DNA of 53,112 nt from a virus. A model generated the notes under the pieces. It did not search any database, was not told the origin of the DNA, and saw only the letters and a program-made list of their open reading frames with translations. The number at the start of each line of letters is the position of its first letter. Position 1 is the first letter of the stretch. Position numbers and translations under genes: made by a program. Location: IMG/VR virus record IMGVR_UViG_3300025896_000034, positions 1 to 53,112 of that record. One strand, written 5' to 3'. Of the stretch, positions 4,928-53,078 are shown piece after piece.

Positions 4928-4935
4928 CTACCTAT
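4928..4935 (+). promoter_or_regulatory. CTANNTAT octamer (candidate phage promoter)
   Basis: CTACCTAT, 6 nt before the ATG of the PAAR-like gene at 4942, and at the start of a long plus-strand structural gene run. One of a recurrent set in this window. Confidence 0.45.
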
Positions 4936-4941
4936 TGGAGA

Positions 4942-5214
4942 ATGAAACAAGCAGCAGTCCAGGGTTCAGGGTGTCAAGGTAACACCGGGCCGTTGTACCT
5001 GATCGACTACGTGCCACAAGACCGGGTGCTGCTCAGCGGAGTCCCTCTGGCCACCAAGGCATCGCGAATCGGCTCCAGCGAGGTCCGTGAGGGCGATGAG
5101 CGCGTCCTAGTCGCCAACCGTTTCCCGGTCGCCGGTGAGGGTGACGCCATCGAGGGTCCGGTAGTGAGTGGCACTATCAACCAGGATACCAGCGACCGTG
5201 TGCTGATCGGATGA
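4942..5214 (+). CDS. PAAR-like tail spike-tip protein (tentative)
   Basis: 90 residues, Gly/Val-rich, with short repeated strands of the type RVLLSG.PLAT..SRIG and RVLVANRFPVAGEGD...I.GPVVSGT, ending in DRVLIG. This resembles PAAR proteins (T4 gp5.4 type), which cap the central spike of contractile tails. The metal-binding His/Cys set of classical PAAR domains is not evident, so the assignment rests on pattern and on the neighbouring baseplate-type gene. It starts the plus-strand structural gene run and is preceded by a CTANNTAT octamer. Confidence 0.4.
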   Translation: MKQAAVQGSGCQGNTGPLYLIDYVPQDRVLLSGVPLATKASRIGSSEVREGDERVLVANRFPVAGEGDAIEGPVVSGTINQDTSDRVLIG

Positions 5215-5232
5215 TTTCTTGCTGTCAACCCT

Positions 5233-6123
5233 ATGATTCGATCCAACGTTGATTCCCTGCCGCCAGAGTTCACCGAGTTCACCCTCCCATCAGGTGGACT
5301 GCCTTACCGAAACAACTTCCCGGACTTCCCGTCTGTAGCCAGGGTAGGGTCATTCACGTTCAAAACCGAGTGTATCTTGACCACTAACATGGACCTGATG
5401 GAGAAGATGGCCAGGATCACCAGAGACGTATTCCAGAACCTTCCGCCGAACTTCCCGATCGACGACCTCCTCGAAGAGGATCAGATGGTAGTCATGGCGC
5501 TGGCACGCGGCCAGACCTACGGCGAGTCTTACATCTTTGCCACTGTTTGCCCCAGCTGCAAACACCGCGAGTCTCACGAAATGAAGATCCCGGAGCAGCT
5601 CCCAGTCGTGAACTGGAAGTTCGACAGCCTGGAAAAACTGGAGGAACATCTGACCGTGGCGCTTCCCTACTCCAAGGACGTTGTGCGTCTGCGCCCCATT
5701 ACGGTCGGCATGGGTAAGAAGAGCGTCAAGGGTAACGAGCCCGCCAATGCCCCGGCAGAGGGCGAAGCCGCCCCAGCAGAGGCGAAGCCGCGCTCGTCCA
5801 AGTCGGCCATTGTGAAAGCCACAGCGGTCGCAGCTGCGCCAGACAAAGTCAGCCTGAGCGACCTCCCCAAAGAAGCGTCGGACTTCTTGTTCGGTGTCGC
5901 TCGTAGGATCGAGTCGGTCAATGGCACCACGCCGGACTCCTTGCAGGAGGCAGCCGACTGGCTGTTGCGTTTGTCGGGTCGTGACCGGGTGGCTATCGAG
6001 GAACATCGAGTCAAAACCGCGTGTGGGATCAACTATGACATCCCAGTGAAATGCGATAACTGCGCTAACCAGTTCACGGCGTTCCTGCCGATTGCGTCGT
6101 CATTTTTTCGTCGAGGCCAGTGA
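5233..6123 (+). CDS. baseplate hub protein, T4 gp26-like (tentative)
   Basis: 296 residues. It contains two CxxC pairs, CPSC near residue 105 and CDNC near residue 279, which together could bind one zinc. The arrangement, a soluble protein with N-terminal ITRDVFQNLPPNFPIDDLLEEDQMVVMALARGQTYGE and zinc pairs bracketing a variable insert, recalls the gp26/pfam T4_baseplate group in large myophages, but I cannot confirm it. A low-complexity Ala/Glu/Lys insert (about 165-215) is probably a linker. The leader has the TTTCT motif 13 nt before the ATG. It lies between a PAAR-like gene and a tail fibre gene, consistent with a baseplate role. Confidence 0.45.
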   Translation: MIRSNVDSLPPEFTEFTLPSGGLPYRNNFPDFPSVARVGSFTFKTECILTTNMDLMEKMARITRDVFQNLPPNFPIDDLLEEDQMVVMALARGQTYGESYIFATVCPSCKHRESHEMKIPEQLPVVNWKFDSLEKLEEHLTVALPYSKDVVRLRPITVGMGKKSVKGNEPANAPAEGEAAPAEAKPRSSKSAIVKATAVAAAPDKVSLSDLPKEASDFLFGVARRIESVNGTTPDSLQEAADWLLRLSGRDRVAIEEHRVKTACGINYDIPVKCDNCANQFTAFLPIASSFFRRGQ

Positions 6124-6184
6124 AAATGGCCGAGTCCCGCACGCTTCCTTGTTGACACGAAACCGGGCTGCGTACATCTCAATC

Positions 6185-6307
6185 ATGAGACTGTCAAGGT
6201 TTACAGGGACTCCGATGCCCTACTTCGAAACGATCCCGCTGTCACGCCTTCCAGTGTTGGAGGTGGAGCTAGAGGAACTCATCACTCAAACCAAGGGGCT
6301 GAGGTAG
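6185..6307 (+). CDS. small hypothetical protein
   Basis: 40 residues from the ATG at 6185; an internal ATG at 6215 is also possible. It fills the space between the gp26-like gene and the next small gene, ending 1 bp before it. A TTGACA at 6152-6157 lies upstream, but its spacing to a -10 (TACATC at 15 bp) is poor. No domain seen. Confidence 0.35.
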   Translation: MRLSRFTGTPMPYFETIPLSRLPVLEVELEELITQTKGLR

Positions 6308-6308
6308 C

Positions 6309-6605
6309 ATGCAAGACCTAGACGCTAAATGCCGCGAGATCCTCAAAGAGGAGCTAAAAAGACTGCTCGATGAGCACCGTGAGGTCCTTGATTCACTGCC
6401 TGATCGGTATCTCGAAGAACTAACCCTGTTGCGCACACTGAGCACAGTGTCGCTCACTGAAGCTCTCAAGTTTGACTTTGGGGATGCTGCTGGGCTGGCG
6501 TTCGTGTTGCAGCACGGAGGGCACGATTTTCCGGCGCTCCAGTTCATCACCAGACTAGACAAAGCGGTTGGTAGGCGGTTGACGGAGCTGATAGAGAAGC
6601 TCTAG
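6309..6605 (+). CDS. hypothetical protein
   Basis: 98 residues, mostly helical and charged (KCREILKEELKRLLDEHREVL...), with no recognised family. The position between a baseplate-like gene and the tail fibre gene suggests a small baseplate or assembly protein, but this is inference from context only. GAGG precedes the ATG, one of the few SD-like sequences here. Confidence 0.55.
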   Translation: MQDLDAKCREILKEELKRLLDEHREVLDSLPDRYLEELTLLRTLSTVSLTEALKFDFGDAAGLAFVLQHGGHDFPALQFITRLDKAVGRRLTELIEKL

Positions 6606-6609
6606 GTAT
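6602..6609 (+). promoter_or_regulatory. CTANNTAT octamer (candidate phage promoter)
   Basis: CTAGGTAT, 5 nt before the ATG of the large fibre gene at 6615, overlapping the stop codon of the gene before. Confidence 0.45.
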
Positions 6610-6614
6610 AAGCA

Positions 6615-10033: not shown

Positions 10034-10041
10034 ATATCGAC

Positions 10042-10398: not shown

Positions 10399-11020
10399 GG
10401 TCTGGGACAAGGTCTCACCTGAGACGCTCGCCTTCCTAGACTGTCACGAAACCATGGGACTACTGGAGCACGGCCAAGAGGCCGCTCTTGAGTTATGCGC
10501 CATGGACGCCCTGATCGAGGAGTTCGAGAGCCACATCAAGCGCAGCCCACGCCACGGGCGGGTCAGAGATACATGGCAGACTCTGAAAGAAGCAGTTCGT
10601 ATTGGTAACGTTGGACCGCAGATCCTACTCAGGTTCTCACGCCGCACCAAAATCATGCTAGAACAAACCAGAAAAAACCGCTTCGAGGCTTCCCTGATGG
10701 AGTCGCTCCTCAACATGGGAGACCTCAGCGCCCTCGCCCCTGAAAGACTTCAGGACTTGGAGCCACACCAGGCTTTCCTACGCGAGATGGGCCGCACCTT
10801 CAAGTGTCGCAGCGGCGATCTGGCCGAATCGGTGTCGAGTGGCCTCCACGTTTACCTCGATGAAGCCGACACCAAGAAGCTGCTGGAGCAACGCGCCATG
10901 ATGCTTGAGCAGTTTGCTCTGAAGCACGGCTATCACTGCGTGCGCCGTGGCAGCATGTCGGACATCAGTCACGGACACTCCAGCCAGCGGGTATCACGCT
11001 GGACCTTCATCAAGATATGA
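10340..11020 (+). CDS. hypothetical protein, helical
   Basis: 226 residues from the ATG at 10340, overlapping the end of the previous gene. Mostly alpha-helical and charged, with no recognised domain. It ends in an ATGAG overlap with the intein-bearing gene, so the two are probably co-translated and may act together. Confidence 0.6.
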   Translation: MSASPIQPQDQTAPLSFTREVWDKVSPETLAFLDCHETMGLLEHGQEAALELCAMDALIEEFESHIKRSPRHGRVRDTWQTLKEAVRIGNVGPQILLRFSRRTKIMLEQTRKNRFEASLMESLLNMGDLSALAPERLQDLEPHQAFLREMGRTFKCRSGDLAESVSSGLHVYLDEADTKKLLEQRAMMLEQFALKHGYHCVRRGSMSDISHGHSSQRVSRWTFIKI

Positions 11021-13827
11021 GCGCGGCCTTGCTGCTACAGAAACACCGCCGGAGGCGCAAAGCGTCTTCCGTACCCAAGCCTTGCCCAGAAGAAGGCCAA
11101 GAGCCAGACAACCTGACCGAGTCCTCGGCATGGGTGGCAAACGTCCTAATCCCGGACGCTGGCAAGCTGATCCTGCTGCCGGTCCTCGACACTTATCAAT
11201 CAAATGGGGTCGCGTTTCACGCCAACTCCCCAGGAGGCAGGATGCTGCCGATCTATTCAGTCCTTGCCAATCGCGCAGTCCTCCAGAAACACTTCCCCTG
11301 GCTCGGTCGCGAGATCAACCGGCTGAAACAAGAGGACCTCGTGGACGAGTCTGAAATGTCGATGGTGCAGAAACGGGTGTTCGAGCGCAGCGGGTTCGGA
11401 TTCTGGATCGTTAAGGGCCAGCGCGGCTACTTCTATGGCAACCCGTTGGTGCATAAGCTGTTCATGCGCGACGTCACAACCGAAGAACTGCGCAAGCTGT
11501 CTCACATCTTCAAAGCAACGGCTGCCGGACTTCCGCAGGAGGTAGTGTCCATTGAGGACTTCACAGGCCAGGACGACCTGTCCTTGAAGGGACTGGTCAA
11601 CTCAGGCAGGCACGCCACCCCGAATGAGGTGGCGTTTTTGATCTACGACCAAGGAGACTTGGAAGGAGTCAACCCAAAACAGCTGGCTGACCTGCTGGAT
11701 TACCCAGCGGTCACTGATAGCCTTAGGCACCTCCAGGGGCCGTCACAACTCAAGTTTGCTCACAACGTCGTGCTGGCGCTCAAGTACTCTATGAGCAAAG
11801 GGGTGGAGGTGGAGATCGACAAATACCCGCCTTACATCGCAATGGCACTCCGCAAGGTCGGCGAGAGCCTGGAAGAGGCCTCCTTCAGCAAGCTGCTTGG
11901 CCTGACCCAGTCCAATGGTGGCTACCGTTACGGCGGTATGCGCAAGGTAAACGACCGGTGGGTGATCGACCCCGCCATCAACGGACGTCTTGACAACAGC
12001 CGTTTCATCGTGACCTCGATGCCATCCTGGAGGCTCGGTCAAGACGGGTTTCCTGTGATGCCCTACGTCTGCAAATCGGCTCCAGAGCGCAGCACCACTG
12101 GCATGAAGCAGGTTGGGTTCGTGCGCGTCACTAACCAAGGCGGGTTTTTGCGCAAGCTCGCTGGTAAACTCATTCCGCAGATCCGGGCGGCAGAGCCCGA
12201 CGTTCAGGTGTTCTGCAGCTGTCTGTCGGCGGAGTCAGTTGTATTGATGAGCGACGGCACCTATCGCCCAATCGCTGAGGTCAGGGTGGGGGACAACGTG
12301 ATCACCCACAAGGGACGCTCACGCAGAGTCACCAAGGTGGCAGCCCGTCAGGTCAGGCCAGACGAGAACGTGTATCGCGTAAAGGTACAAGGCTTCCCAT
12401 TTGAAATGACTGTGACCGGCAACCACCCGTTCTACACGCTCCGAGGTAACGACAAGTGCCTGTGCGGCTGCGGGCAGCTCCTACAGCGTCCAAAGCGCAG
12501 TGCCTGGTCGCCGGAACTGCTCCTAGGGCGTCGTTTCATTCAGGGCCATGGTGCACGCCCAGCAGTTGAGCAGGACCACTCAACTGGCAGGTTCTCGTGG
12601 ATTGACGTGGATAACCTTGAGCCAAACGAATGGTTCCTCTCCCCATGGCAGCAGTCCGGGTGCGCCAGCATGAGCAGGAGTCTGGCAAGGCTGTTGGGAT
12701 ATTACGCGGCGGAAGGCTCCGTTGCAACCAGAGGGACGACGGTTAGCTTCACTCTCAACATGAACGAGTGGGATACCATCGGCAACGATGTGTTGAGGCT
12801 CTGCCACAATCTCGGCCTTAAGGCGCGCAGGAAGCAGTCAGGCGACCACAACTGGTTCAACGTTTACGTCTCAGACAAGAAATTCCGCGACCAGTGCGTG
12901 TCCCTGGCGGGCACCGGGTCCCGCACCAAGAAATTGGCTAGCAGCTTGATGGACCTCCACCATGAATCACTCGTAGAACTGCTCCTAGGCATGTTACTAG
13001 GAGATGGCACAGTCGGTGGTGTGAGTGGTGGAAAACGTCAGGGACGAGTCAGGTACCACTCAACCAGCAGAGATCTTGCCAGCCAGGCCCAGACCATCAT
13101 GAGCAGGCTCGGACTGCGAAGCTCCCTGTCCTTCTCCAGGAAGGCCACGAAGCCAAGGCAGGCACGCAGCAAGCGCGAGGGCAAAGTGGTTACCCTTAAC
13201 CAGTCGGCTTGTTGGCAGGTCACTCCTGACCCAACGGCCTGTTCATCCCTGCGTCGCCTGATGCGCTCAGTAACGGGCGGTAAGGACTCCATGCCGGACA
13301 ACCCCGCAGCACAGCGCAGCGTTAAATTCGTCCCGAAGGAGGGACAACTGCGTGCTATGCTCAAACGCGAGAAGGTTGACTTTGACGGACTCGTTTACGA
13401 CTTGACTGTCGAGGAGGACGAGTCGTTTGTGGCGCATGGGGTCGCGGTTCATAACTGTCCCGACTTCAAGTATCGGTACCACTGGGTGCTGTCCCAAATG
13501 GGCGCAGCCGCGAAGCCGTCCGGAGCCGGTGGAGAGGCCACCAATGCCCCTCCCAACAAGACCAACCCGTCATTCAGGCCATCGCTGTGCAAGCATCTGG
13601 CAGCCTGTGACCAGTTTATCGACTTTGGCAACGCCGACTTCAGGAAGATGCTGCGCAAGGTCGGTAACTCGCCGGTCCAGACTACACAGCCAAAGCGCGA
13701 TCCGGTGATTCGCCGGAACGCGCCAGTCAGAGCAGCCCCGACACCACCAAAAAACGGCGATCCGAAGCCTGCTGATCAAGGTGTTACTCCTCCAGAAGCT
13801 GCTTCGGTGTCACCCCGCCTTGCCTGA
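11017..13827 (+). CDS. SWIM-type zinc-finger protein interrupted by an intein
   Basis: 936 residues as translated. Residues 402-813 are an intein; after splicing the product would have 524 residues. The joined host sequence reads ...VFCS-CPDFKYRYHW... followed by SLCKHLAAC, that is CxC...CxH, the metal-binding pattern of SWIM zinc fingers. SWIM domains bind DNA or proteins. The N-terminal 400 residues are unlike anything I recognise; the C-terminal 70 are Pro/Lys-rich and probably disordered. The gene sits in the structural run after the tail-tube-like gene, so a virion or packaging-associated role is possible but unproven. It has an ATGA overlap with the gene before. Confidence 0.7.
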   Translation: MSAALLLQKHRRRRKASSVPKPCPEEGQEPDNLTESSAWVANVLIPDAGKLILLPVLDTYQSNGVAFHANSPGGRMLPIYSVLANRAVLQKHFPWLGREINRLKQEDLVDESEMSMVQKRVFERSGFGFWIVKGQRGYFYGNPLVHKLFMRDVTTEELRKLSHIFKATAAGLPQEVVSIEDFTGQDDLSLKGLVNSGRHATPNEVAFLIYDQGDLEGVNPKQLADLLDYPAVTDSLRHLQGPSQLKFAHNVVLALKYSMSKGVEVEIDKYPPYIAMALRKVGESLEEASFSKLLGLTQSNGGYRYGGMRKVNDRWVIDPAINGRLDNSRFIVTSMPSWRLGQDGFPVMPYVCKSAPERSTTGMKQVGFVRVTNQGGFLRKLAGKLIPQIRAAEPDVQVFCSCLSAESVVLMSDGTYRPIAEVRVGDNVITHKGRSRRVTKVAARQVRPDENVYRVKVQGFPFEMTVTGNHPFYTLRGNDKCLCGCGQLLQRPKRSAWSPELLLGRRFIQGHGARPAVEQDHSTGRFSWIDVDNLEPNEWFLSPWQQSGCASMSRSLARLLGYYAAEGSVATRGTTVSFTLNMNEWDTIGNDVLRLCHNLGLKARRKQSGDHNWFNVYVSDKKFRDQCVSLAGTGSRTKKLASSLMDLHHESLVELLLGMLLGDGTVGGVSGGKRQGRVRYHSTSRDLASQAQTIMSRLGLRSSLSFSRKATKPRQARSKREGKVVTLNQSACWQVTPDPTACSSLRRLMRSVTGGKDSMPDNPAAQRSVKFVPKEGQLRAMLKREKVDFDGLVYDLTVEEDESFVAHGVAVHNCPDFKYRYHWVLSQMGAAAKPSGAGGEATNAPPNKTNPSFRPSLCKHLAACDQFIDFGNADFRKMLRKVGNSPVQTTQPKRDPVIRRNAPVRAAPTPPKNGDPKPADQGVTPPEAASVSPRLA
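12220..13455 (+). mobile_element. LAGLIDADG intein in the SWIM protein gene
   Basis: 412 codons in frame. It begins with Cys1 in CLSAESVVLMSDGTYRPIAEV (block A), has a block B His in TVTGNHPFYT, two LAGLIDADG-type helices (ARLLGYYAAEGSV and LVELLLGMLLGDGTV), and ends VYDLTVEEDESFVAHGVAVHN followed by Cys+1. All residues needed for splicing are present. The insertion point separates the two cysteines of the CxC zinc ligand pair, so the host zinc finger can form only after splicing. Confidence 0.92.
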
Positions 13828-16858: not shown

Positions 16859-16866
16859 GTAGGTAT
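16859..16866 (+). promoter_or_regulatory. variant of the CTANNTAT octamer
   Basis: GTAGGTAT, one mismatch to CTANNTAT, 6 nt before the ATG at 16873. Confidence 0.35.
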
Positions 16867-19382: not shown

Positions 19383-19391
19383 CCCCGATAG

Positions 19392-19679
19392 TTAGGGCTT
19401 CACCAGCCACTCAAACCGCAGGTGGTTGTCGCCACACAGCACGGGCTCCCAGCCAGCGTCCTTGATCATGCTGCGGACGCGGCTGAACAGGCACCCCTGG
19501 TGACTACCGTCTGGGCTCTTCGGCCAAGTCTTCAAGGCCCTGCCGTCGTAGTGGACGGAGGCATGAATCACTTTTCCGGGGAGCTCAACTAGGGTTGTGC
19601 CTAGGATGAAATCAAGGGCCTCCAGCTTCTCAATAAGCTTGAGGAGCCCCACGTTTCGGTTTCTCAGTGTACATTCCAC
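19392..19679 (-). CDS. small hypothetical protein
   Basis: 95 residues from the ATG at 19679, which would overlap the upstream gene by 50 bp; a GTG at 19652 (VGLLKLIEKLEALDF) is a plausible alternative start with less overlap. It contains HASVHYDGRALKTWPKSPDGSHQGCLFSRVRSM, with no family recognised. Confidence 0.5.
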   Translation of the reverse strand: MECTLRNRNVGLLKLIEKLEALDFILGTTLVELPGKVIHASVHYDGRALKTWPKSPDGSHQGCLFSRVRSMIKDAGWEPVLCGDNHLRFEWLVKP

Positions 19680-20794: not shown

Positions 20795-20802
20795 CTACGT
20801 AT
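20795..20802 (+). promoter_or_regulatory. CTANNTAT octamer (candidate phage promoter)
   Basis: CTACGTAT, 9 nt before the ATG at 20812, the longest spacing of the set. Confidence 0.35.
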
Positions 20803-22406: not shown

Positions 22407-24788
22407 CTAAGCCTGGACGGTGGAGCCCTGAACGTCGCGAGCGATGAACTGCTCGACGTCGGCACCGCTTGGCAGGAGCGTGAAGTCGATCTCGAACGCC
22501 TCGGCGGACTTGGTCGGAATCACGTACACCTTGGCTTTGGCAAGGTTCTGATTGCGGACGTCCGGTGTGTTGGTGTCGGCGTCGCACTTGAGCTGGAACC
22601 ACTCGATAGCTTCCTGCTGCTTGCGCGTCCGGAAGGCAGGTTCCACGATGTTGAGCCAGTCTTCCCACATCGTCGGGCCGTTCTGTTCGAAGTTCAGACG
22701 GCGGGAAGCCTGACGGACGACTTTGATGAGGTCGAACATCATGCGGCGAACGTTGATGCGGTCCAGCGAGGACGCGAAGCGCTGCAGAGTGCGCTGGCCG
22801 TAAACCACGACGCCGGTGTCGTTGAACGACGCGATGGCGTTGAGGGCGTTGCCGTTGCCGGGGCCGTACATCGCGTTGCGATCCTCTTCGGTGGTCGCGT
22901 ATTCGACAGCCAGGGCGTTTGGCACCTGACCGCGCTGCTCACCAGCTGGGGCGGTCCAGACCTTGCCAACCGAGTCGTTGTAGGCGAAGACGCCGGGAAC
23001 GAAGGTGGTAGGCGGCATCCAGAGGTTCTTCTTGGAGTAAGGGTCGTAAACCTTGACCCACGGCCAGTAAAGGGCGGCCATGTTGGTCGCGAAGGCAGTG
23101 TGAAGGCCGGTGTACTCGCCGGTGCCGTTGTGCCAGTCGATGACCTGCTGGAGCGACAGGCCGAATGGCGTGTCATAGATGCCGAAGCAATCGTAGCGCT
23201 TCAGAAGGATCTGAGTGACCTCGTCCAGAACGGCTGCCAGAGTAACTCCAGGAACCGCCAAGATGTTGATGTCATAGAGATCGACGCGGCGGAAGTGCTG
23301 CAGACCAGTGTAGGTGCTGTTCGAGATAGTGCCGATGTACTCGGCGCTCGAAGGATTGGAGCCGTTGTAGCCCTTGGCGTTGTCGAACACCTGCTGGGAC
23401 GCCTGAGCGTTGTCGGAGGTGCGGATGGAAGTCTGAGCCCCCATCAAGAAGCGCGGGTTGTTGGGGTGACGAACGCGATCGTAGGAGTTTATGGGCTGCT
23501 CACCATTGGCACCCAAGTAAGTCGCTGTGACGTATTGGGAGATTGGGTTGGCCTCAGTGCCGACCACTGTGTCCCAGAAGTTCGGGCTGGCGGGATCGTA
23601 GCCGATCACGTTGTCGAACACTTCAACCTGAACACCACGGAACAGGATGCGGACGCGCTTGGTAAGGACTCCGACTGGGCTCCAGGCGCTGGAGGTGGTC
23701 GTCACCGCCGTGCAACGGTAAACAACGCCGAAGCGGTGGCCGGTCGTGGACTCCACGAAGCCGGTTTCGGTTCCAGGAGTGATCGTGCCAGCGTAGCCGG
23801 ACACCACAATCGAGGTGCCGTTCGGGATGGCCGTAACTGAGTAGTTGCCGTCGTAAACGGAAGTGCCGGACACCTCAATGGTGTCGGCGACCTTGAACTC
23901 GGAGCTGTTGGAGACGTTCAGGACCAGACTGCCGGAGCTGTTGGCAACACTGGTGATCGTAGCAGCCGCTGAGTCGAAGTTAACACCACGAGTCTCGCCA
24001 ACGCGCACGCCATTGGTGGAGTTGAGAGCGAGCAGATCGAATTTGGTGTCCTTCGAAGGCGCAGCTGGCATGACGCCCTGCAGGGGGATACCCTGGCTGG
24101 TAATGACGTTGCCCTGAGCATCGAGGTTGGCGAACTGGCCACCGTCTTCGATCAGGACTTCAATGCCCTGGGAAGATCCGAAGTTGGCGAAGTCGCCAGG
24201 ATAACGAGCGCGGAACGACAGCAACGGGGTGACCTGACCGTGATGACGGCTCATGACGAACACCTCAGCCGGAGCTGCGGCGGAGTCATCAGAAGAGTCG
24301 ATGCGGACGTCGCTGGTGTCCGTGTAGATGTCGAGCAGCTTACTTGCGAAGGTGATGACGAGGCCGGTGATGTCCGTGATCTGCAGGTTCTGGCTGGTGA
24401 CCCGGCCAGTCTGGGTGATCTTGACGAAGTCGCCAACGTTGAGGCCATGACCGGTCTGAACGTTGATCGAGAAGATGTCGCCAGAGGCCTCAGCCTCGCC
24501 CATGGAGTCAAACAGAGCGGTTTCCTCGGTGTACACCTTGGCAACGCGGCAGTACCACACCTTCTGACCACGGCGCAGGAAGTTGATCGCGGCGTGCGGA
24601 CCGAAGGAGTTGGCAGAGGGCTCGCCAAAGACGCTCAAGAACTGATCAGGAGAGGTGAGCAGGGTGGGCTTGTTGAGGGGGCCGCGTGCTGCCACGCCGA
24701 CAAGGGCGAAGATGGTCGTGGCCTGACCGGCGATGTAATCGCTAAAGTCGCGTTCGTTGATGTAAACTCCGGGGCTAAGGGGCGTCAT
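22407..24788 (-). CDS. tail sheath protein, T4 gp18-like
   Basis: 793 residues, longer than T4 gp18 (about 660). The N-terminus SPGVYINERDFSDYI, then TTIFALVGVAARGPLNKPTLLTSPDQFLSVFGEP, and a C-terminal region with TFVPGVFAYNDSVGKVWTAPAGEQRG, GVVVYGQRTLQ and SSLDRINVRRMMFDLIKVVRQASR, are standard features of contractile sheath proteins. The C-terminal DADTNTPDVRNQNLAKAKVYVIPT...FEIDFTL is the conserved handshake/inner domain. The sheath contracts around the tube during injection. The middle part (about 150-480) carries the variable outer domains and accounts for the extra length. It is followed by a terminator-like hairpin. Confidence 0.9.
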   Translation of the reverse strand: MTPLSPGVYINERDFSDYIAGQATTIFALVGVAARGPLNKPTLLTSPDQFLSVFGEPSANSFGPHAAINFLRRGQKVWYCRVAKVYTEETALFDSMGEAEASGDIFSINVQTGHGLNVGDFVKITQTGRVTSQNLQITDITGLVITFASKLLDIYTDTSDVRIDSSDDSAAAPAEVFVMSRHHGQVTPLLSFRARYPGDFANFGSSQGIEVLIEDGGQFANLDAQGNVITSQGIPLQGVMPAAPSKDTKFDLLALNSTNGVRVGETRGVNFDSAAATITSVANSSGSLVLNVSNSSEFKVADTIEVSGTSVYDGNYSVTAIPNGTSIVVSGYAGTITPGTETGFVESTTGHRFGVVYRCTAVTTTSSAWSPVGVLTKRVRILFRGVQVEVFDNVIGYDPASPNFWDTVVGTEANPISQYVTATYLGANGEQPINSYDRVRHPNNPRFLMGAQTSIRTSDNAQASQQVFDNAKGYNGSNPSSAEYIGTISNSTYTGLQHFRRVDLYDINILAVPGVTLAAVLDEVTQILLKRYDCFGIYDTPFGLSLQQVIDWHNGTGEYTGLHTAFATNMAALYWPWVKVYDPYSKKNLWMPPTTFVPGVFAYNDSVGKVWTAPAGEQRGQVPNALAVEYATTEEDRNAMYGPGNGNALNAIASFNDTGVVVYGQRTLQRFASSLDRINVRRMMFDLIKVVRQASRRLNFEQNGPTMWEDWLNIVEPAFRTRKQQEAIEWFQLKCDADTNTPDVRNQNLAKAKVYVIPTKSAEAFEIDFTLLPSGADVEQFIARDVQGSTVQA

Positions 24789-24822
24789 GATGTGTTAGAA
24801 GGGGTCTTGGATAGGTAGGGAG

Positions 24823-25653: not shown

Positions 25654-25661
25654 ATACTTAG
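25654..25661 (-). promoter_or_regulatory. CTANNTAT octamer (candidate phage promoter)
   Basis: CTAAGTAT on the minus strand, 7 nt before the ATG at 25646, at the head of the tail-sheath unit. Confidence 0.45.
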
Positions 25662-25680: not shown

Positions 25681-25688
25681 CTAGATAT
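25681..25688 (+). promoter_or_regulatory. CTANNTAT octamer (candidate phage promoter)
   Basis: CTAGATAT, 7 nt before the ATG at 25696; it diverges from the minus-strand octamer 20 bp away. Confidence 0.45.
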
Positions 25689-26995: not shown

Positions 26996-27299
26996 ACAGA
27001 ATCAGGTTGAGGAGTGGCAGGGGGCGTGGCTTTCCGTCGTTGCCGGTTAGCGTGACAATATCGGGAGTGACCTCGGTGATCGTAAGCAGCTCGTTGAACA
27101 AAAACACGCGATCTCCCACCTTGTCGGGGAGGTGTAGGTGCCTGATCTTCAGGAGCATGCACATGGTCTTGAAGGCTAGCACATAGTTGCCGCGCTGAAG
27201 ATCTGCAGAGGCGGTGCGCTTGGCGAGCTTCCAGGCTTGGTGGACGTCCCTGCATGGCTTCCCAGCTAGGAACGCCACAGCGTCTAGGTTTTTGATCAT
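26949..27299 (-). CDS. hypothetical protein
   Basis: 116 residues, no family recognised. It starts with an ATGA overlap with the sigma-like gene upstream, and its 3' end overlaps the nuclease-like gene. The final 30 residues are basic and low-complexity. It probably belongs to the same transcript as the sigma-like factor. Confidence 0.5.
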   Translation of the reverse strand: MIKNLDAVAFLAGKPCRDVHQAWKLAKRTASADLQRGNYVLAFKTMCMLLKIRHLHLPDKVGDRVFLFNELLTITEVTPDIVTLTGNDGKPRPLPLLNLILCERRQPSFPSNQAKA

Positions 27300-32328: not shown

Positions 32329-32358
32329 AGCAGGCCTGGGAGTGATCCCAGGCCTGCT
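32329..32358. terminator. bidirectional terminator
   Basis: AGCAGGCCTGGGA (32329-32341), loop GTGA, TCCCAGGCCTGCT (32346-32358), a perfect 13-bp stem. T-rich tails follow on both strands (CTCTTTTG on +, GCATTTTC on -). It sits between convergent genes ending at 32309 and 32408. Confidence 0.85.
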
Positions 32359-36500: not shown

Positions 36501-36793
36501 CACACGATAGCAGCATAGGTGTAGCCGAGGTCGCGGGTGTGGTCGATGGCCTGCTCGGCCTCGTCCAGCTCAGCTTCCGAGTAGAGGGCGAGAGCCTGAT
36601 CGTAGCGATGGGCGCTCAGACCCTGGTGCAGGAAGTTCTTCAGAGAAGGTGCAATGGTTCCGTCCCCTCCCCACACCTCTCGGCGCAGGGCAAGGTTCAG
36701 CAACAGGGACGCCTGATACTGGGTGTCTGGGTTTTCCGGCGAGATGGTATCTCCGGCAGATTTTGCGGCAAGCTTAAGTTCGTCGATGGTCAT
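33512..36793 (-). CDS. nrdA: ribonucleotide reductase large subunit interrupted by an intein
   Basis: 1093 residues as translated from the ATG at 36793; the host protein after splicing has 710. The spliced catalytic motif reads RMSNL-CMEVTHPT, the N-x-C-x-E triad of class I enzymes, so the Cys immediately after the intein is the catalytic thiyl Cys. Other family segments are present: SSFSLPVRMSN, a central N-rich block, a PCESSSVVQNSTNGIDPVRSEV segment and the C-terminal redox cysteine tail GCAGGACTL. It reduces ribonucleotides in the cytoplasm together with NrdB, for DNA synthesis. The intein must be removed before any activity. It is preceded by a small gene whose stop overlaps its leader. 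Confidence 0.92.
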   Translation of the reverse strand: MTIDELKLAAKSAGDTISPENPDTQYQASLLLNLALRREVWGGDGTIAPSLKNFLHQGLSAHRYDQALALYSEAELDEAEQAIDHTRDLGYTYAAIVWWMEKYLVQDRASECHYETPQFAIMITALALYAVKPREVRMQLVRDLYHGVSTLVISQPTPVRAGLRTPLRQFASCTLAEMDDTLDSIGHTNLAMMKYGAARAGLGLNISRIRPQNSTVASGEVVSTGVIPFLKMFESTIKSTSQHGVRSASATVFFQFWHLEVESLVIAKSSTRGSHDRKVFKLDYCIVVNRMLYLRAIAGQDITLFNPNEVKDLYEAWGTPDFDRLYVECESRPGLTTKKISAKELVNLSLDVTLETGRLYYLHIENCNTHSSFSLPVRMSNLCLSGDTKLLTTSGYRPMRDLWLEQGCHELGSGADFNSSFVVNQHGVANSTPVVRTSESSEVFDLKLSGGLTVRATAHHEFELYDGGRARLFELAAGSRIRVSNTEFFGDFDDITYAELAGHLIGDGSVSTRNATSQHGIIKLWDDEIDELGPVFSSLLKQLFTDSSPTSELVPDYSFSNKHFDEAFGYWVASARSLPFGRRLLADGVTPGSKHRVPASIWRGTKTTVGAFLRGLYTADATIGCYGASASVTIAQVSKSLLREVQVLLSQFGIMSSLHPGVQGCKRLMKDGKGGMREYDGKATWRLMISSRDNLVLFADLIGVRQESKMASLREWLATHPGSNNSHNLYFREVESITYAGEEETFCLTEPENHQIIVNGIVTGQCMEVTHPTIPIQHIDGPGWIGLCILSALNATEITADNISRIAYTTVSHLDTLIDYQSYPVPAAEQFCKYWRSLGVGLTNLAAWLAREGLTYDHPDAPNRVAELMEMVQWHLLDASCKLAEELGAAPGFRDTKYAQGLLPIDHYKKDLDTIVTVPLKMDWEGLRERIKKHGLRNCTLSAQMPCESSSVVQNSTNGIDPVRSEVTFKKSKSGPVRVLVPQVLTREGTLGVYQHAFGMKDNFGYLSIAAAIQKFMCMSISTNLYYQYKRYPDGKIPLELILREQLFFFRIGGKSLYYIVSDDDDRQTVSEHVDTQAPFLEESGCAGGACTL
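34499..35647 (-). mobile_element. LAGLIDADG intein in nrdA with C-terminal Gln
   Basis: 383 codons in frame. It begins CLSGDTKLLTTSGYRPMRDL (Cys1, block A), has a block B-like TAHHEFEL, two LAGLIDADG-type helices (AELAGHLIGDGSV and VGAFLRGLYTADATIG), and ends EPENHQIIVNGIVTGQ before Cys+1. The last residue is Gln instead of the usual Asn, and the penultimate is Gly instead of His. Gln-terminated inteins are known and can splice through Gln cyclisation. The insertion is exactly before the catalytic Cys of NrdA. Confidence 0.92.
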
Positions 36794-36800
36794 GTGGGGA

Positions 36801-37061
36801 CTAGGCAGAAAGCCAGGAAAGGGCAAACTGAGTTAAAGTTACGTTAGCCCCTTCAATAACGACAAGACCGCACTCTTTCAGCCACTCCACAGCGGGGGTG
36901 ACTTGAGTGCTGCCATTATCTCGAATTGACTGGAGGAGCCGCCAGTCATCACCCGTGATCTCGACCAGATTGACGTTGTCAGTGGCGGTCGTGATCATCC
37001 CAGTCTCGATCAGACGAGGCTCTTTAGTGCGTTGAGCAAGTTCTTCGCGAAGAGACAGCAT
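36801..37061 (-). CDS. small winged-helix-like protein
   Basis: 86 residues. The C-terminal part (DDWRLLQSIRDNGSTQVTPAVEWLKECGLVVIEGANVTLTQFAL) has a winged-helix pattern. It ends 8 bp before the NrdA start and begins 2 bp after the gp53-like stop. Role unknown; it could be a regulator of the downstream NrdA/NrdB genes. Confidence 0.45.
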   Translation of the reverse strand: MLSLREELAQRTKEPRLIETGMITTATDNVNLVEITGDDWRLLQSIRDNGSTQVTPAVEWLKECGLVVIEGANVTLTQFALSWLSA

Positions 37062-41565: not shown

Positions 41566-41573
41566 ATACCTAG
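41566..41573 (-). promoter_or_regulatory. CTANNTAT octamer (candidate phage promoter)
   Basis: CTAGGTAT on the minus strand, 7 nt before the ATG at 41558, ahead of the portal gene. Confidence 0.45.
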
Positions 41574-42820: not shown

Positions 42821-42828
42821 ATACTTAG
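42821..42828 (-). promoter_or_regulatory. CTANNTAT octamer (candidate phage promoter)
   Basis: CTAAGTAT on the minus strand, 5 nt before the ATG at 42815, at the head of the portal/NrdA/NrdB unit. Confidence 0.45.
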
Positions 42829-43231: not shown

Positions 43232-46200
43232 ATGAGCAAAGTCCTAAAGCAGCCCGTTATGTCCGGGCCTGAGCATCCACCATCCGAGGAGCATCCGGCC
43301 TGCATTAAGTGCGCCTTGTTCAAGACTGCCGAGACCCCGTTCTGGGACTCCTTCTACGAGCAGGACGGCAAGATCAAGATGGGGATGCCCGATTACCCGG
43401 TGAACGGTGGCTGGGTGATGGTAGTCGGCGACGGGATCTCCAAGGAAATGGACGAGGAGGAGAAGCCGACCGACCTTAGCGTGCTGATCAAGCACCTACG
43501 GAGCATGGGTCTCAACAACCGCGTTGTCTATGTGCCAGGCACGCTCTGTGTGGCCCCGGACGGTACCGAGGGACGCAAACGCAACCTCAAGAAGCCAGAG
43601 ATCAGCCGCTGCTTCGGTCACCATATCCGGTGGCGGGTGGACTACCTGAAGAACATCGGCCTGTGTGGGCTGATTGCCGCCGGTCCCGTGGCGTCCTATA
43701 GTCTGCTGGGCCACATGGACTCCAAGCAGTGGGGGCAGCGCAAGCCCTACGTCCACGACCACGACATCCCGGTGATCGGGACGATTGACGTGGAGGCGAC
43801 TCTGGTTGCTCCGACCAAGCGCCCCCTGCTGATTACGCAGCTCCAGTTTGCTGTGGACTCCTTGGAAGGGCGCATCGCAGCTACTGACCGTCACCAGGTC
43901 GCCTACACAGTGGCGTGGTCTCCTGAAGAGTTCGATGCTTGGTTTGAAGGTCTGGACCTGCGCAAGCCGCTAATGTGGGACGTGGAATCCAGTGGGGTCA
44001 AGCCCTTCGCAGCTGGTTACCGTCTGGGCGTGTTTTCCTTCTACCACCCGTCCCGCGACAAGGTTCTGATCGTGGCGACTCCGGACTACAAGCATGCTCA
44101 CGACAAGTATTCAGACTGGGTGGATGCTGCCCTGGAACGCTTGGAACAGGGCTCCGAAGAGGATGTGCCGTGCAACAGTTTCGACCAGCAGTGGCGCAAG
44201 ATGGAGCCAAAGGTCAAGAAGGTGATCGAGGCTGAGGAGTACAAGAAGCTGGGTCACAATCAGCAGTTCGATGATGTGTCGGTGTATGCCAGGTACCGCT
44301 GGCAGATGGGCGGCTACTTCAACGACACGATGATCATGAACTACCTGTTGACGCCGGACGAAAAGCGCAACGGTTTGGAGGCTCTGGTCCAGAAGTGGTA
44401 TCCGGAGGCCGACGGTTACTGGGACGCTCTGGACGAATATAAGAGCCAGTACAACCCAGAGTCTTACATGGAGATTCCGTGGGACGTCTTGGTGCCTTAC
44501 GCGGCCTACGACACCTGGGTGCTGTGGCCGGTGTTCATGGCGATCCTCAACGAGTTCAAGAGGCTGGATGACGAAGAGTATGGCGGCCTGTTCGTGAGGC
44601 GCACCGAGGGTGGAGTGATCCAGCCCACCTACTCGCTCCTTGAGTATGCGATGTTTGGCCGGAAGATTCACCAACGGATGTGCACCGAGCTGGAGAAGAC
44701 CGGAGCACCGATCGACACCGAGCTGCTGCCACGCATTTACGACGAGTACAACAGGCAGCGTGATGCTTTGGCCGTCAAGCTCAACTCCCATCAGGACGTC
44801 GTAGCCTTCTGCTCCGAGGTCCTAGGACCACAGGCCAAGAAGGGAACCCCGAACTTCAAGCTGTGGAAGGCAGGCGAGATCCCAGAGCTCAACTGGGGCT
44901 CGCCGGTCCAGCTCAAGACCTTCTTCCTTGACTACCTCGGAATGAGCACTGACCGCCGGACCAAGACCGGCGGTGTCAGCCTGGATGAAACGGCCCTGCT
45001 GGGTATGATGACGGAGCACGAGATCGTCAAGATCCTGCTGGACTGGCGCGGAGCCGACAAGTTCGTGACCTCCTTCCTCGATCCGCTCATCGAAAAGCGC
45101 GTGCTGTGGCCGGACGGACTCACCCACGCCTCCTTCAGGCCGTCCGGCACCGAGACCAGCCGTCTCGCAGTGTCCAGCCCGAACGTCCAGGCCATCCCGC
45201 GTGACGGCTTGGTCAAGAAGCTCTACTGCCCACGCGACCGTGCCAAGGGCTGGCTGGTGACACGCGATTATTCAGGCCTCGAAGTCCGCGTGATGGCTTG
45301 TATGGCGTCCGATGAATCGCTGATTCACACCTTCATGACGGGTGGTGACCCCCACTTCAACACGCAGCGCCACTTCTTCCACGACAAAGCTGACAAGAAG
45401 AATAAGACCCAGCGCTCGATTTGCAAGCAGGCCCTGTTCGGGCGAATTTACGGCCAGACCGCCAAGGGTCTGTATGAACTACTGCTCGGAAACGGTGTGA
45501 TGAACCCCGACACCGGCCTCCCGATCACTATGGAGGAAGCCGAGGCCTTCAACCAGATGCTGGACGACGCCTATCCGGCCATCGCCAGCTGGGTCAACGC
45601 CTCTCACCGCTTCTCGATCGCTACCAAATACGTGGCGTCGCCCTTCGGATTCGTCCGCCCTCTGGACGCCCTGCAGGACCACGCCACCTTCCTGACCCGG
45701 AAGCGTGAAAAGGGTTGCTGGGACAATCAGCGCTTCCGCAAGCTCTCCAGCGCTATCTCGAAGGACCTCAGGCGTGCTCAGAACTGTGTGGATGCTGAGA
45801 CCGAGTGTCTTACTGCCGAAGGCTGGAAAACCTATGATAAGCTGGCAGCCGGTGAGCTAATCATGACGAAAAACCCGGATACCGGAATCCTGGAGTGGCA
45901 CCCGATCCTGAAGATGAACGTCTTCGAGGAATCGTCCACGCCGGTATGGGAAGTCGAGACCAACGCCTTCTCGGCCTGCGTTACCCCGAACCACCGCTGG
46001 CTGGTGACGACCCGCAAGCGTGGCGGCAAGGGTAAGCCAACCCAGTATGTCGATGAAATCTTGACGATGGAGCAGATGGTAGCCTCGAAGGGCTTCTCGT
46101 CTCTGCACCGGACTGGCGAGTGGGAAGGTGCAGACGCCCCTTATTCAGACCGGTTCCTGCAGCTCATCGGGTGGTATGTGACCGACTCCAGCATCAAGCG

Positions 46201-47263
46201 TGGAGTGGATGGGAGGTCTTCTACAATTGAAGTCGGTCAGGACTCTTCCAAAAAAGACAACTGCGAGCAGATTCGAAGCATCCTTGGCGACTGGGCTATC
46301 AGCGAACGCCCGGAAGGGACTTTCTTGCGCTGGCGTGTGAATGTTGCTATCTCAGAGGAGGTCATCAGGCTGCTACCGCGCCGGAAGCTCACCAACGAGT
46401 TCATCAGGTCACTCTCGCAGTTTCAAGCAAGACTCGTGATGAGTGAAATGCTCAAAGGAGATGGCAGCCGTGGGCGTGTCCTCTATGCTGAGGACCAGGA
46501 GGAGGTTGACTTATTTCAGACTCTGGCTTTCATAGCTGGCATCGCCACCAACGCTGGTTGGCGTGACATGTCGAAGTACCCGCCACGTGCCAGCAAAAAG
46601 CTTAAGCGTCCGATCATTTCGAAGAAGGGTGGCTACTGGGAAGTTTCGGTTCTCAGCCGTAAGACAGCGCAGGTCCTGAAGCCACAGGTCAAGATTATCG
46701 ACGACAAGCGCTTGGTGTGGTGCCCGACCGTGCAGAACAGCACCTGGGTGGCCCGTCGCAAGGGCTGCGTTTACGTGACAGGGAACACCGCGATCCAGTC
46801 GGCTGCCGGAGACCTCACGGTGTTCGCTGGTTGGCAGATCCGCAACGTCATGAAGGACGTTGGGCTGGACTCCGAGATCGTCAACATCGTTCACGATGAT
46901 ATTTGGATCAACGTCAACAGCGATGATCAGGTGCCGATGACCACCGCTGTGATGCGTCAGGTCATGGACAACTCACCGGACTGGCTCCCCGACATGCTCC
47001 CAGGCTATGACCCGTCTTGGATCACGGTGCCGATCATCGGCGAGTGCGACGTCGGGATCAACGCCAAGGACGCCTTTGGCGCTAAAGAACCTGATTGGGG
47101 CGTGGCCGACTCCCGTCTGAAGCTCAAGGTGCCAGGCGTCGTCATCAACAAGATCAACGGGCGCGACCTTGCGACGGAATGCGAGCCAGACTACGTCGAT
47201 TTCTTGGATAACTCAGATCTTCTCAGGTCAGTACTCAACGTACAACGTAGCCAGTTCAATTAA
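43232..47263 (+). CDS. polA: family A DNA polymerase with UDG-like N-terminus, interrupted by an intein
   Basis: 1343 residues as translated from the ATG at 43232 (MSKVLKQ); about 1009 after intein removal. Residues 1-190 resemble a [4Fe-4S] uracil-DNA glycosylase: C24 and C27 in CIKC, then C106 and C127 spaced as in family 4 enzymes, but the usual GEAPG catalytic motif is VVGDGIS, so activity is doubtful. A 3'-5' exonuclease follows (DVESSG near 249, LGHNQQFDDVSVYAR, YAAYDT), then the polymerase with motif A RDYSGLEVRVMA (about 678), motif B RSICKQALFGRIYGQ (about 730) and motif C IVHDDIWINV. The intein sits before the IQSAAGD motif. UDG-PolA fusions are known in SPO1-like phages. It leads the replication gene run. 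Confidence 0.9.
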   Translation: MSKVLKQPVMSGPEHPPSEEHPACIKCALFKTAETPFWDSFYEQDGKIKMGMPDYPVNGGWVMVVGDGISKEMDEEEKPTDLSVLIKHLRSMGLNNRVVYVPGTLCVAPDGTEGRKRNLKKPEISRCFGHHIRWRVDYLKNIGLCGLIAAGPVASYSLLGHMDSKQWGQRKPYVHDHDIPVIGTIDVEATLVAPTKRPLLITQLQFAVDSLEGRIAATDRHQVAYTVAWSPEEFDAWFEGLDLRKPLMWDVESSGVKPFAAGYRLGVFSFYHPSRDKVLIVATPDYKHAHDKYSDWVDAALERLEQGSEEDVPCNSFDQQWRKMEPKVKKVIEAEEYKKLGHNQQFDDVSVYARYRWQMGGYFNDTMIMNYLLTPDEKRNGLEALVQKWYPEADGYWDALDEYKSQYNPESYMEIPWDVLVPYAAYDTWVLWPVFMAILNEFKRLDDEEYGGLFVRRTEGGVIQPTYSLLEYAMFGRKIHQRMCTELEKTGAPIDTELLPRIYDEYNRQRDALAVKLNSHQDVVAFCSEVLGPQAKKGTPNFKLWKAGEIPELNWGSPVQLKTFFLDYLGMSTDRRTKTGGVSLDETALLGMMTEHEIVKILLDWRGADKFVTSFLDPLIEKRVLWPDGLTHASFRPSGTETSRLAVSSPNVQAIPRDGLVKKLYCPRDRAKGWLVTRDYSGLEVRVMACMASDESLIHTFMTGGDPHFNTQRHFFHDKADKKNKTQRSICKQALFGRIYGQTAKGLYELLLGNGVMNPDTGLPITMEEAEAFNQMLDDAYPAIASWVNASHRFSIATKYVASPFGFVRPLDALQDHATFLTRKREKGCWDNQRFRKLSSAISKDLRRAQNCVDAETECLTAEGWKTYDKLAAGELIMTKNPDTGILEWHPILKMNVFEESSTPVWEVETNAFSACVTPNHRWLVTTRKRGGKGKPTQYVDEILTMEQMVASKGFSSLHRTGEWEGADAPYSDRFLQLIGWYVTDSSIKRGVDGRSSTIEVGQDSSKKDNCEQIRSILGDWAISERPEGTFLRWRVNVAISEEVIRLLPRRKLTNEFIRSLSQFQARLVMSEMLKGDGSRGRVLYAEDQEEVDLFQTLAFIAGIATNAGWRDMSKYPPRASKKLKRPIISKKGGYWEVSVLSRKTAQVLKPQVKIIDDKRLVWCPTVQNSTWVARRKGCVYVTGNTAIQSAAGDLTVFAGWQIRNVMKDVGLDSEIVNIVHDDIWINVNSDDQVPMTTAVMRQVMDNSPDWLPDMLPGYDPSWITVPIIGECDVGINAKDAFGAKEPDWGVADSRLKLKVPGVVINKINGRDLATECEPDYVDFLDNSDLLRSVLNVQRSQFN
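45785..46786 (+). mobile_element. LAGLIDADG-type intein in DNA polymerase
   Basis: 334 codons in frame. It begins CVDAETECLTAEGWKTYDKL, has a block B His in TPNHRWLVTTR, LAGLIDADG-like helices LIGWYVTDSSI and MSEMLKGDGS (the first lacks the canonical acidic residue, so homing activity may be lost), and ends CVYVTGN before Thr+1. It interrupts the conserved N/T-x-IQ-x-AAD helix just before motif C. Confidence 0.88.
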
Positions 47264-47521: not shown

Positions 47522-47550
47522 ATCTAGTCGTTTCCCACCACACTCCCCCT

Positions 47551-50243: not shown

Positions 50244-50250
50244 AACCACT

Positions 50251-51162: not shown

Positions 51163-52178
51163 CACCCCTTTTTGACCTCGTGTACCCTGACGACCGCGAT
51201 GACATTCGCGGCCTCAGGGTAAAACTTTTGGTCCATGGTGATTCTGACAGGCATCTTCACACCACAGTTGGCATCACCGAACAAGTTCACGACCACGTAA
51301 CTGCGACGCCATGAAGCAAATGAGTTGCTAGTAGAGGCAAAGACCTTCAGAGCCTCTTGCTTTAGGCAAGCACGAACCTCACGTGATTTCGACTCTGATA
51401 GTGGGGTACGACCGCGCTCTTCCCCTGCAGCGAGGCCACCGGGGGAGGTCAGGAGTTCGAGCTTTTCGGGGTCAAATCCGAGGGACGTCTCTTCACCGCC
51501 TCCCTCCGCAAATGACAGCGTGGCCGACCCTTCTACCGAGTCAACTACCTGATCATAGTCTGGTCGTATGCTGTCACGCACGGTTCGCGGCGTGCAAAAT
51601 GACACCTCGTCCCCATTGGACGAGAACAGGCAATAGCCGCCCTCACCGCGTGAATTCACAGCCCTCTTCGTCAGGTGCCTTCTGATGAACTCGTGAGCAG
51701 ACCAGCCTGGACAATGCAAGATCCTGAACTCGTCCGGGGTTTGAGTAGTCTCGATGGTACCAGGCGTCATCCCTGACTCCTGAATGACGCGGGAAGCTGT
51801 CTCCGATACCTCGCCTTCGTAGTGTTTCATCAAGGACGACGCCAGCATGACGGCTCGCTTTTCGATCGTCACGAACTCAAACCGCATCGTGGTCTTGCGC
51901 CTTCTGATCCGCGATCCGATCACGATGTGACGTTGTGTAGGCAGGGTGACGGATAGCGCCGTGTCCTTGATCGAAAACTCGATCTCCCCACCGGCTTTGA
52001 TCAGCTGCGAGTAGTTGGCGAGCCAGGCTTCCGACTGCTGCCCCATCGGTTTGCTCACGTGCCACGCCATCGACCAGTCCCCATCAGCCCGGTCCACGAA
52101 CCTGAGAGACTCAAACGAGTCGCTGAGTGCGTCATCCTTGTAACGCACACACCAGGAGGTCTTTTGTTGGAATGCCAT
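51126..52178 (-). CDS. baseplate hub-like protein (gp27/gpD type, tentative)
   Basis: 350 residues. The central region (residues about 85-215: IVIGSRIRRRKTTMRFEFVTIEKRAVMLASSL..., GWSAHEFIRRHLTKRAV, YCLFSSNGDEVSFC) resembles the hub domain shared by T4 gp27, P2 gpD and related proteins, where W-S-x-x-E-F-I-R-R-x-L is a typical stretch. The C-terminal part is unrelated. Hub proteins hold the central spike and the tube. It overlaps the poly-Ser gene at its start and is in the same direction. Confidence 0.45.
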   Translation of the reverse strand: MAFQQKTSWCVRYKDDALSDSFESLRFVDRADGDWSMAWHVSKPMGQQSEAWLANYSQLIKAGGEIEFSIKDTALSVTLPTQRHIVIGSRIRRRKTTMRFEFVTIEKRAVMLASSLMKHYEGEVSETASRVIQESGMTPGTIETTQTPDEFRILHCPGWSAHEFIRRHLTKRAVNSRGEGGYCLFSSNGDEVSFCTPRTVRDSIRPDYDQVVDSVEGSATLSFAEGGGEETSLGFDPEKLELLTSPGGLAAGEERGRTPLSESKSREVRACLKQEALKVFASTSNSFASWRRSYVVVNLFGDANCGVKMPVRITMDQKFYPEAANVIAVVRVHEVKKGCYTCAHFALPST

Positions 52179-53065
52179 TAGGACGAGCTAGACGACGAAG
52201 AAGAGCTGTTGACCGACGAAGAGGACGAAGAGGACGAGGAGGAACTGTTGACCGAGCTGCTGGAGCTGGACGAACTGTTGCGCGACGAGGATGATGAAGA
52301 GGAACTGTTGACCGAGCTGCTGGAGCTGGACGAGCTGTTGACCGACGAGGATGAGGACGAGCTGGAGTTGGAAGAGTTGGACGAACGAGAGGACGCGGAG
52401 CTGGCTGAGGACTCCGAGGAATAAAGCTCTGCGATGCTATCGAGGTGTGGCACCGCGATGGCCCAGGCCGACACGATGATCGAATTCGAGTTTGGGTTGA
52501 TCAACCGGATGTCGTACTCATCCTCAGCGTCCAGAGTGAACGGAGGAAGCGACATGTCCTGGTTCATGAACTTAGGAGCCTCGGTGAGGTCAACGATGGC
52601 GTTGGTGCCGAGGTTGTACAGGACTACCCTGGCTGTGGACACCGTGGCGTCACTCGATGAGGAGGACGAGGATGACCCCTCGGGGTCAATGAGGTGCAGG
52701 CTTAGGCCGACGCCGACGTAGCCCCAGCGCGAGATCCCAGCAACCGGGTTGATCCGGCCAAGGGAGATCCAGTCGCCGCCCGGAAGGCGCAACGACGGCA
52801 TGTTGTAGGTGACTCCCCCACGGTTCCCCAAAAAGGAGATCACGGAGCGCAGGCCGATCTCAAGGACCAAGTCCCGCCTGAACAGATCTCCTTCAACCCT
52901 TTGGCGCGTGTAGGCATTGACCGGGTCTTCACCGGCGGTGACCTGCAGGGCAGCGTTCGGGTTGTTGTAGGGGTCGCCAACCAAGGGGTTGACGCGTGAC
53001 CAATAGCTGAGCCACAGGGCTGGTGCGTTGGTGTCGAGACGGTCGATGGGTACGGGAGAGGGCAT
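52178..53065 (-). CDS. probable virion protein with poly-Ser tail
   Basis: 295 residues. Residues 1-130 and 140-215 look like strand-rich virion domains (LRSVISFLGNRGGVTYNMPSLRLPGGDWISLG..., EYDIRLINPNSNSIIVSAWAI), joined by a run of eight Ser; the last 80 residues are Ser runs broken by VNS, RNS and SSN units. The tail is the longest of the three in the window. Location next to a hub-like gene suggests a baseplate or fibre-associated protein. The CTACTTAT octamer lies 5 nt before the ATG. Confidence 0.6.
   Translation of the reverse strand: MPSPVPIDRLDTNAPALWLSYWSRVNPLVGDPYNNPNAALQVTAGEDPVNAYTRQRVEGDLFRRDLVLEIGLRSVISFLGNRGGVTYNMPSLRLPGGDWISLGRINPVAGISRWGYVGVGLSLHLIDPEGSSSSSSSSDATVSTARVVLYNLGTNAIVDLTEAPKFMNQDMSLPPFTLDAEDEYDIRLINPNSNSIIVSAWAIAVPHLDSIAELYSSESSASSASSRSSNSSNSSSSSSSSVNSSSSSSSSVNSSSSSSSSRNSSSSSSSSVNSSSSSSSSSSSVNSSSSSSSSS
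52181..52423 (-). repeat. poly-serine coding repeat
   Basis: Ser-run coding DNA (TCC/AGC/TCG mix) with VNS spacers. It shares the CTCGGTCAACAGTTC core with 2257-2451 at the opposite end of the window. Confidence 0.75.
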
Positions 53066-53070
53066 GCTTT

Positions 53071-53078
53071 ATAAGTAG
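53071..53078 (-). promoter_or_regulatory. CTANNTAT octamer (candidate phage promoter)
   Basis: CTACTTAT on the minus strand, 5 nt before the ATG at 53065. Confidence 0.45.

Follow-up and report, generated by a model that had tools for sequence, protein, structure and literature searches.

A probable T4-type late promoter adjoining start codons in a phage record from IMG/VR

The late promoter of phage T4 is the octamer TATAAATA, occupying positions −13 to −6 (PMC1524935; PMC2988020), and that of Aeromonas phage Aeh1 is CTAAATA, which begins at −12 and in which the C is a strong determinant (PMC1524935; also PMC2988020). T4-type late promoters have so far been inferred for phages of E. coli, Aeromonas, Vibrio and cyanobacteria (PMC2988020). 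The late system of T4 comprises gp55, gp33 and gp45: the promoter is recognized by the sigma gp55 and activated by the sliding clamp and gp33. Here, we analyze the virus record IMGVR_UViG_3300025896_000034, from an uncultured tailed phage, a stretch of 53,112 nucleotides (nt) that we refer to as the window, in which the octamer CTANNTAT (CTA, two free bases, TAT) recurs just ahead of start codons. We propose that CTANNTAT is probably a T4-type late promoter of the Aeh1 subtype: a −10-only element that is read by a phage-encoded sigma factor and mostly gives rise to leaderless messages.

A search of both strands of the window finds ten copies of CTANNTAT where 2.92 are expected, a number that 0 of 100 dinucleotide shuffles reach. 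All ten are oriented toward a gene start on their own strand: nine have an ATG 5-9 nt downstream, and the tenth lies 22 nt upstream of the ATG of the tail-sheath gene. The octamer is not equally frequent in coding DNA away from starts, since none of the ten copies falls within a gene body in a window that is about 94% coding. An ATG follows at 3-12 nt for nine copies, against none for a reversed control pattern, and a first-order Markov model predicts 0.015 copies in this interval ahead of the 59 predicted starts, in keeping with an earlier expectation, made from the letters alone, of far fewer than one. That original prediction had named eight octamers, all of which are present and correctly placed; its list was incomplete, overlooking the sites ahead of 19382(−) and 24788(−). 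One-mismatch forms are also found 3-12 nt ahead of starts more often than expected (6 versus 0.5), and include the form GTAGGTAT that had been noticed ahead of 16873.

Because CTANNTAT had been chosen after the fact, we tested every gapped pattern of six fixed bases for enrichment ahead of starts. Only two lie far beyond the null: CTANNTAT, with 10/10 copies near starts (log10 p −19.4), and a second motif, GNTTTCT, with 14/23 (−21.0). The best scores in 60 random-position sets and 60 gene-internal sets are −6.6 and −6.4, respectively. With starts taken from an automatic gene caller alone, CTANNTAT still has 9/10 copies near starts and scores −14.8. Calibrated on the late region of T4, the same scan returns TATANNTA at −13.2, with 12/18 copies of TATAAATA near starts; on the late region of Aeh1, the top motif other than the Shine-Dalgarno (SD) sequence is CTANATA at −10.7, with 10/17 copies of CTAAATA near starts. 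The start-proximal signal of CTANNTAT thus equals T4's own in strength. A short, conserved −10-like element tied strongly to gene starts is one mark of a T4-type late promoter, and CTANNTAT is an element of this form.

The likeness to known late promoters is closer than the original prediction, which had compared the sites with T4, had noted. All ten copies of CTANNTAT keep the C, TA and TA of CTAAATA, at the same spacing. The Aeh1 promoter, which lies ahead of late genes and is paired with a diverged gp55, lacks a −35 element. When the window's sites are lined up at the octamer, conservation upstream is limited to one borderline base, and so CTANNTAT has no −35 element either. With T4, the window shares a TANNTA core one helical turn ahead of the predicted start, the lack of a −35 element, and a likely phage sigma with a region 2 match. 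The central AA of CTAAATA is not kept, a trailing T is added, and a search of Rfam gave no match. The layouts also differ: the distance to the ATG is 14-28 nt in T4 and 18-45 nt in the tested stretch of Aeh1, where 40 of 51 genes have an SD sequence, whereas the window has a spacing of 5-9 nt and an SD string at 2 of 53 starts. Most messages would thereby be left almost without a leader, a layout unusual for this kind of phage.

The genes downstream fit a late role in part. CTANNTAT directly heads two genes with a known role, 6615 (tail fibre) and 24788 (sheath), and structural genes also lie within headed units: the portal and baseplate-wedge genes in the unit beginning at 41558, and the probable tail tube gene (9500) in that beginning at 6615. 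The claim that most sites head structural units is borne out only in part; the other headed genes are unannotated. At four divergent junctions (4898/4942, 16825/16873, 20769/20812 and 25646/25696) each side carries one of the two motifs, and gene 42815 lies opposite the DNA polymerase gene, where GTTTTCT precedes the best-scoring start (43232) by 17 nt. The distribution of the two motifs suggests a division into late (CTANNTAT) and early or middle (GNTTTCT) genes, a reading weakened by the many unannotated genes and by the structural gene 5233, which bears GNTTTCT. Sites and features are collected in Table 1.

Table 1. Octamer sites and related features of the window, with their neighboring genes (aa, amino acids)
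Feature	Position	Strand	Context
CTACCTAT	4928..4935	+	6 nt ahead of ATG 4942 (90 aa, no known role); heads rightward unit containing baseplate-hub gene 5233
CTAGGTAT	6602..6609	+	5 nt ahead of ATG 6615 (tail fibre, 961 aa); then probable tail tube gene 9500
One-mismatch form GTAGGTAT	16859..16866	+	6 nt ahead of ATG 16873 (215 aa)
CTAACTAT	19388..19395	−	5 nt ahead of ATG 19382 (62 aa, phrog_3666); absent from original prediction
CTACGTAT	20795..20802	+	9 nt ahead of ATG 20812 (159 aa); adjoins opposite-strand GNTTTCT site heading 20769(−)
CTACCTAT	24811..24818	−	22 nt ahead of ATG 24788 (tail sheath); absent from original prediction
CTAAGTAT	25654..25661	−	7 nt ahead of ATG 25646 (81 aa); heads leftward unit running to sheath
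CTAGATAT	25681..25688	+	7 nt ahead of ATG 25696 (240 aa); divergent from site 25654..25661
CTAGGTAT	41566..41573	−	7 nt ahead of ATG 41558 (201 aa); then portal (40927) and baseplate-wedge genes (38862, 37825)
CTAAGTAT	42821..42828	−	5 nt ahead of ATG 42815 (73 aa); heads leftward unit opposite DNA polymerase
CTACTTAT	53071..53078	−	5 nt ahead of ATG 53065 (295 aa); heads leftward unit
Tail sheath gene	22407..24788	−	Ortholog used for promoter comparison across relatives
Sigma-like protein, 347 aa	27296..28339	−	Proposed reader of CTANNTAT; two GNTTTCT copies upstream, no CTANNTAT
GNTTTCT sites (gapped-pattern scan)	1753, 4916, 5213, 15975, 16836, 19181, 20789, 21742, 22111, 28353, 28371, 29574, 31323, 36807, 42579, 43208		

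The proposed reader of CTANNTAT is considerably longer than T4 gp55 (185 aa). Its match to sigma region 2 is weak (Pfam Sigma70_r2, E 5.6e-4, short of the curated cut-off), and its sequence includes GKFYTYAATSTKHGCISLVARES, similar on visual inspection to sigma regions 2.3-2.4. Compared with 12,910 open reading frames from the window and its relatives, seven of its eight best non-self matches belong to one family of ~250-340 aa, recovered from ~100 viral contigs, and in a search with the profile of this family the window protein ranks directly below the members themselves (E 0.007-0.2). A model of the window protein had a predicted local distance difference test score (pLDDT) of 41, and a relative's member of the family was modeled instead (pLDDT 77); its matches in the PDB are nearly all sigma factors, at E 0.03 or weaker, with gp55 proteins among the weak viral fold matches. 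Alignment of the family to gp55 with hhalign is also weak (E 0.01-0.07), and is colinear over 104 columns for members without an insert. Solved structures, searched with a profile of the sigma alignment, and named phages, searched by tblastn with the window protein, gave no match. From these comparisons, the protein is likely a phage sigma and a probable ortholog of the relatives' sigma-fold family. Of the earlier description of it as gp55-like, the sigma assignment finds support, while orthology with gp55 in the literal sense is suggested rather than proven.

Members of the family in relatives (alignments A3/A5, for example L314, L184 and L168) differ from T4 gp55 in a cysteine-rich insert that some of them carry within region 2 and in a C-terminal stretch resembling a helix-turn-helix. 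In T4 gp55, similarity to sigma factors is found in domain 2 alone (PMC2988020). A clamp-binding motif is not obvious by eye in the C-terminus of the window protein, where no alignment aimed at the motif was made. In one relative, G019, an intein bearing a LAGLIDADG domain interrupts the family's gene (L174:10747-12981).

Relatives were gathered by a tail-sheath search, which returned a wide set of uncultured phages whose best segments are 28-43% identical; single-protein searches of viral contigs with the sigma, portal and DNA polymerase returned none. CTANNTAT is not enriched ahead of ATGs in these relatives, and motif discovery on 10-22 kb pieces of the closer ones, which was underpowered, found no twin of it. 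The whole records of several of them instead have CAAANATA or CAAANNTA as the strongest start-proximal motif other than SD (G007, −12.9; G016, −14.4; G019, −19.9; G022, −11.9), and in 30 of 50 distinct sheath-gene upstream regions CAAANATA lies at −33 to −57 and is followed by an SD sequence. In G019, the genes bearing the motif include those for the sheath, head maturation protease, and homing and HNH endonucleases. At 100 leadered CAAANATA sites, A occupies the position 12 nt from the C in 57% (p 2e-7), with T before it and purines after; this initiator-like pattern, 11-15 nt from the C, occurs near starts only and is absent from 276 copies elsewhere. At 18 further sites, the predicted +1 position coincides with the A of the ATG. 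Because these 18 genes lack SD sequences altogether (0/18) while 77/100 leadered genes have one, promoters of the CAAANATA kind seem to give rise to leaderless genes in the relatives already. The CAAANATA element resembles that of the window in standing ahead of the sheath gene, in the presence of a probable sigma ortholog and in its leaderless subset, and differs in being another octamer and in serving mostly leadered genes.

Two further observations concern these relatives. A sheath subclade with the N-terminus MAERIVSPGV (L062, L069, L075, L083, L086-L089, L091 and L094) has no CAAANATA in the 70 nt ahead of the sheath gene, which may be read from a promoter farther upstream. Two sheath contigs, L098 (JAHEYD010000003.1) and L100, are binned in metagenome-assembled genomes labeled as the archaea Nitrosotalea and Lokiarchaeota, and are possibly mis-binned phage contigs.

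We propose that CTANNTAT would serve as the −10-type element of late promoters, diverged from TATAAATA of T4 and CTAAATA of Aeh1, and that host core RNA polymerase would be brought to it, with no −35 element, by a phage sigma, for which the 27296-28339 protein is the most likely candidate. Transcription would begin about 12-13 nt from the C of CTANNTAT, on the A of the ATG or a few bases ahead of it. Nine of the ten messages would then have little or no leader and be translated with no SD sequence, while the leader of the sheath message would measure ~17 nt. The base at offset 13 from the C is A in 7/10 copies, and in four of these is the A of the ATG itself. The leaderless transcripts foreseen in the original prediction stand as the best candidate reading: an SD string is present at so few window starts, against 30-78% in relatives, that the host probably initiates translation without one, and relative to its CAAANATA-bearing relatives the phage would represent the extreme of a leaderless layout. 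We infer the late timing, the recognition by the 27296-28339 protein, the exact 5' ends and any activation by a clamp.

Leaderless genes of Actinobacteria or Deinococcus are known to have a TANNNT-type −10 element adjoining the ATG, and CTANNTAT might likewise be a primary-sigma promoter of a leaderless-rich host, with no need for a phage sigma. We consider this unlikely. The position and leaderless layout fit, and the TA of CTANNTAT could sit at −12/−11 if its C is at −13, but this sigma-70 reading fails because position −7 would then be A in 10/10 copies, not T. A conserved −35 element is also lacking, sigma-70-type sites are not enriched (4 found versus 4.0 expected in the 18 kb scanned), and CTANNTAT heads structural genes while replication and regulatory genes bear the other motif.

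Somewhat less probable again is that CTANNTAT acts in the mRNA as a translation signal at the SD position, as its 5-9 nt spacing, the missing SD strings and the occurrence of some copies at junctions within co-directional gene strings would allow. Two free central bases are unsuited to pairing with rRNA, however, and such a signal would not explain the sheath copy 22 nt away, the restriction to ten genes or the units headed at divergent junctions; in relatives, moreover, the counterpart lies 33-57 nt upstream, has an initiator-like pattern downstream and is followed by a normal SD sequence. Least probable, to the point that we give it very little weight, is an operator for a dimeric regulator with the promoter elsewhere: the TANNTA core is its own reverse complement, but the flanking C and T break this symmetry in 10/10 copies, which all face one direction, no other motif lies upstream, and a regulator site would not need its fixed closeness to the ATG. 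An archaeal TATA box is ruled out by the distance of 5-9 nt to the ATG and the phage-encoded sigma.

Several points weigh against a phage-sigma late promoter. The two central bases of CTANNTAT vary and are never AA, the pair found in both T4 and Aeh1, and the register is uncertain by one base, as the comparison with Aeh1 places the C at −12 and the preference for A at offset 13 places it at −13. Most genes headed by CTANNTAT are without a known function, and the homing-endonuclease genes of relatives are also preceded by CAAANATA. CTANNTAT itself was not found at gene starts in relatives. The links from the window sigma to its family (E 0.007-0.2) and from the family to gp55 (E 0.03-0.07) are weak, and neither a clamp nor gp33 turned up in the window fragment, in which no specific search for either was made.

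Going beyond a T4-type late promoter of the Aeh1 subtype, promoter and start codon may have become fused in this phage, with nearly all late genes leaderless and free of SD sequences and read by a single-chain late sigma, made of region 2 and a C-terminal helix-turn-helix-like domain, rather than by a split gp55/gp33. The relatives' CAAANATA with its leaderless subset would then represent an intermediate state. We regard this scenario as tenable, at somewhat below an even chance. In the open-access literature, we found no paper linking T4-like late promoters with leaderless mRNA.

The second motif, GNTTTCT (often TGNTTTCT), lies mostly 7-20 nt ahead of ATGs and heads genes for a helicase, the ribonucleotide reductase large chain, TnpB, the sigma (two copies) and DNA polymerase, among others. 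No partner element accompanies it at a fixed distance, and relatives showed no counterpart. We rejected its identification as a MotA box of T4 middle promoters, since a box at −30 would stand farther from the ATG; it may be a promoter class or an RNA signal. The TnpB/Cas12f-like gene (3771-4898, minus strand) has GTTTTCT at its head and diverges from the CTACCTAT site at 4928.

Elsewhere in the window, intein-like insertions are present in the ribonucleotide reductase large chain (33512-36826), DNA polymerase (43232-47263) and a protein of no assigned identity (11017-13827). The polymerase intein was recognized by similarity to phage DP SC_2_H4, and we rejected the polymerase match as a sign of relatedness to that phage since it is largely the shared intein. 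A strong hairpin at 32329-32358, with 13 pairs and T-rich tails on both strands, lies between convergent genes ending at 32309(+) and 32408(−) and is a candidate bidirectional terminator.

If our reading is right, T4-type late promoters extend to a large group of uncultured far-T4 phages and to a GC-rich genome, where transcription starts can be predicted to within one or two bases. One kind of promoter would serve both leadered and leaderless genes, with a clean split in their use of SD sequences. Prior work has asked why no fused late sigma has been found (PMC2988020). The relatives' sigma, in which region 2 and a C-terminal helix-turn-helix-like domain seem to be combined, bears directly on this question.

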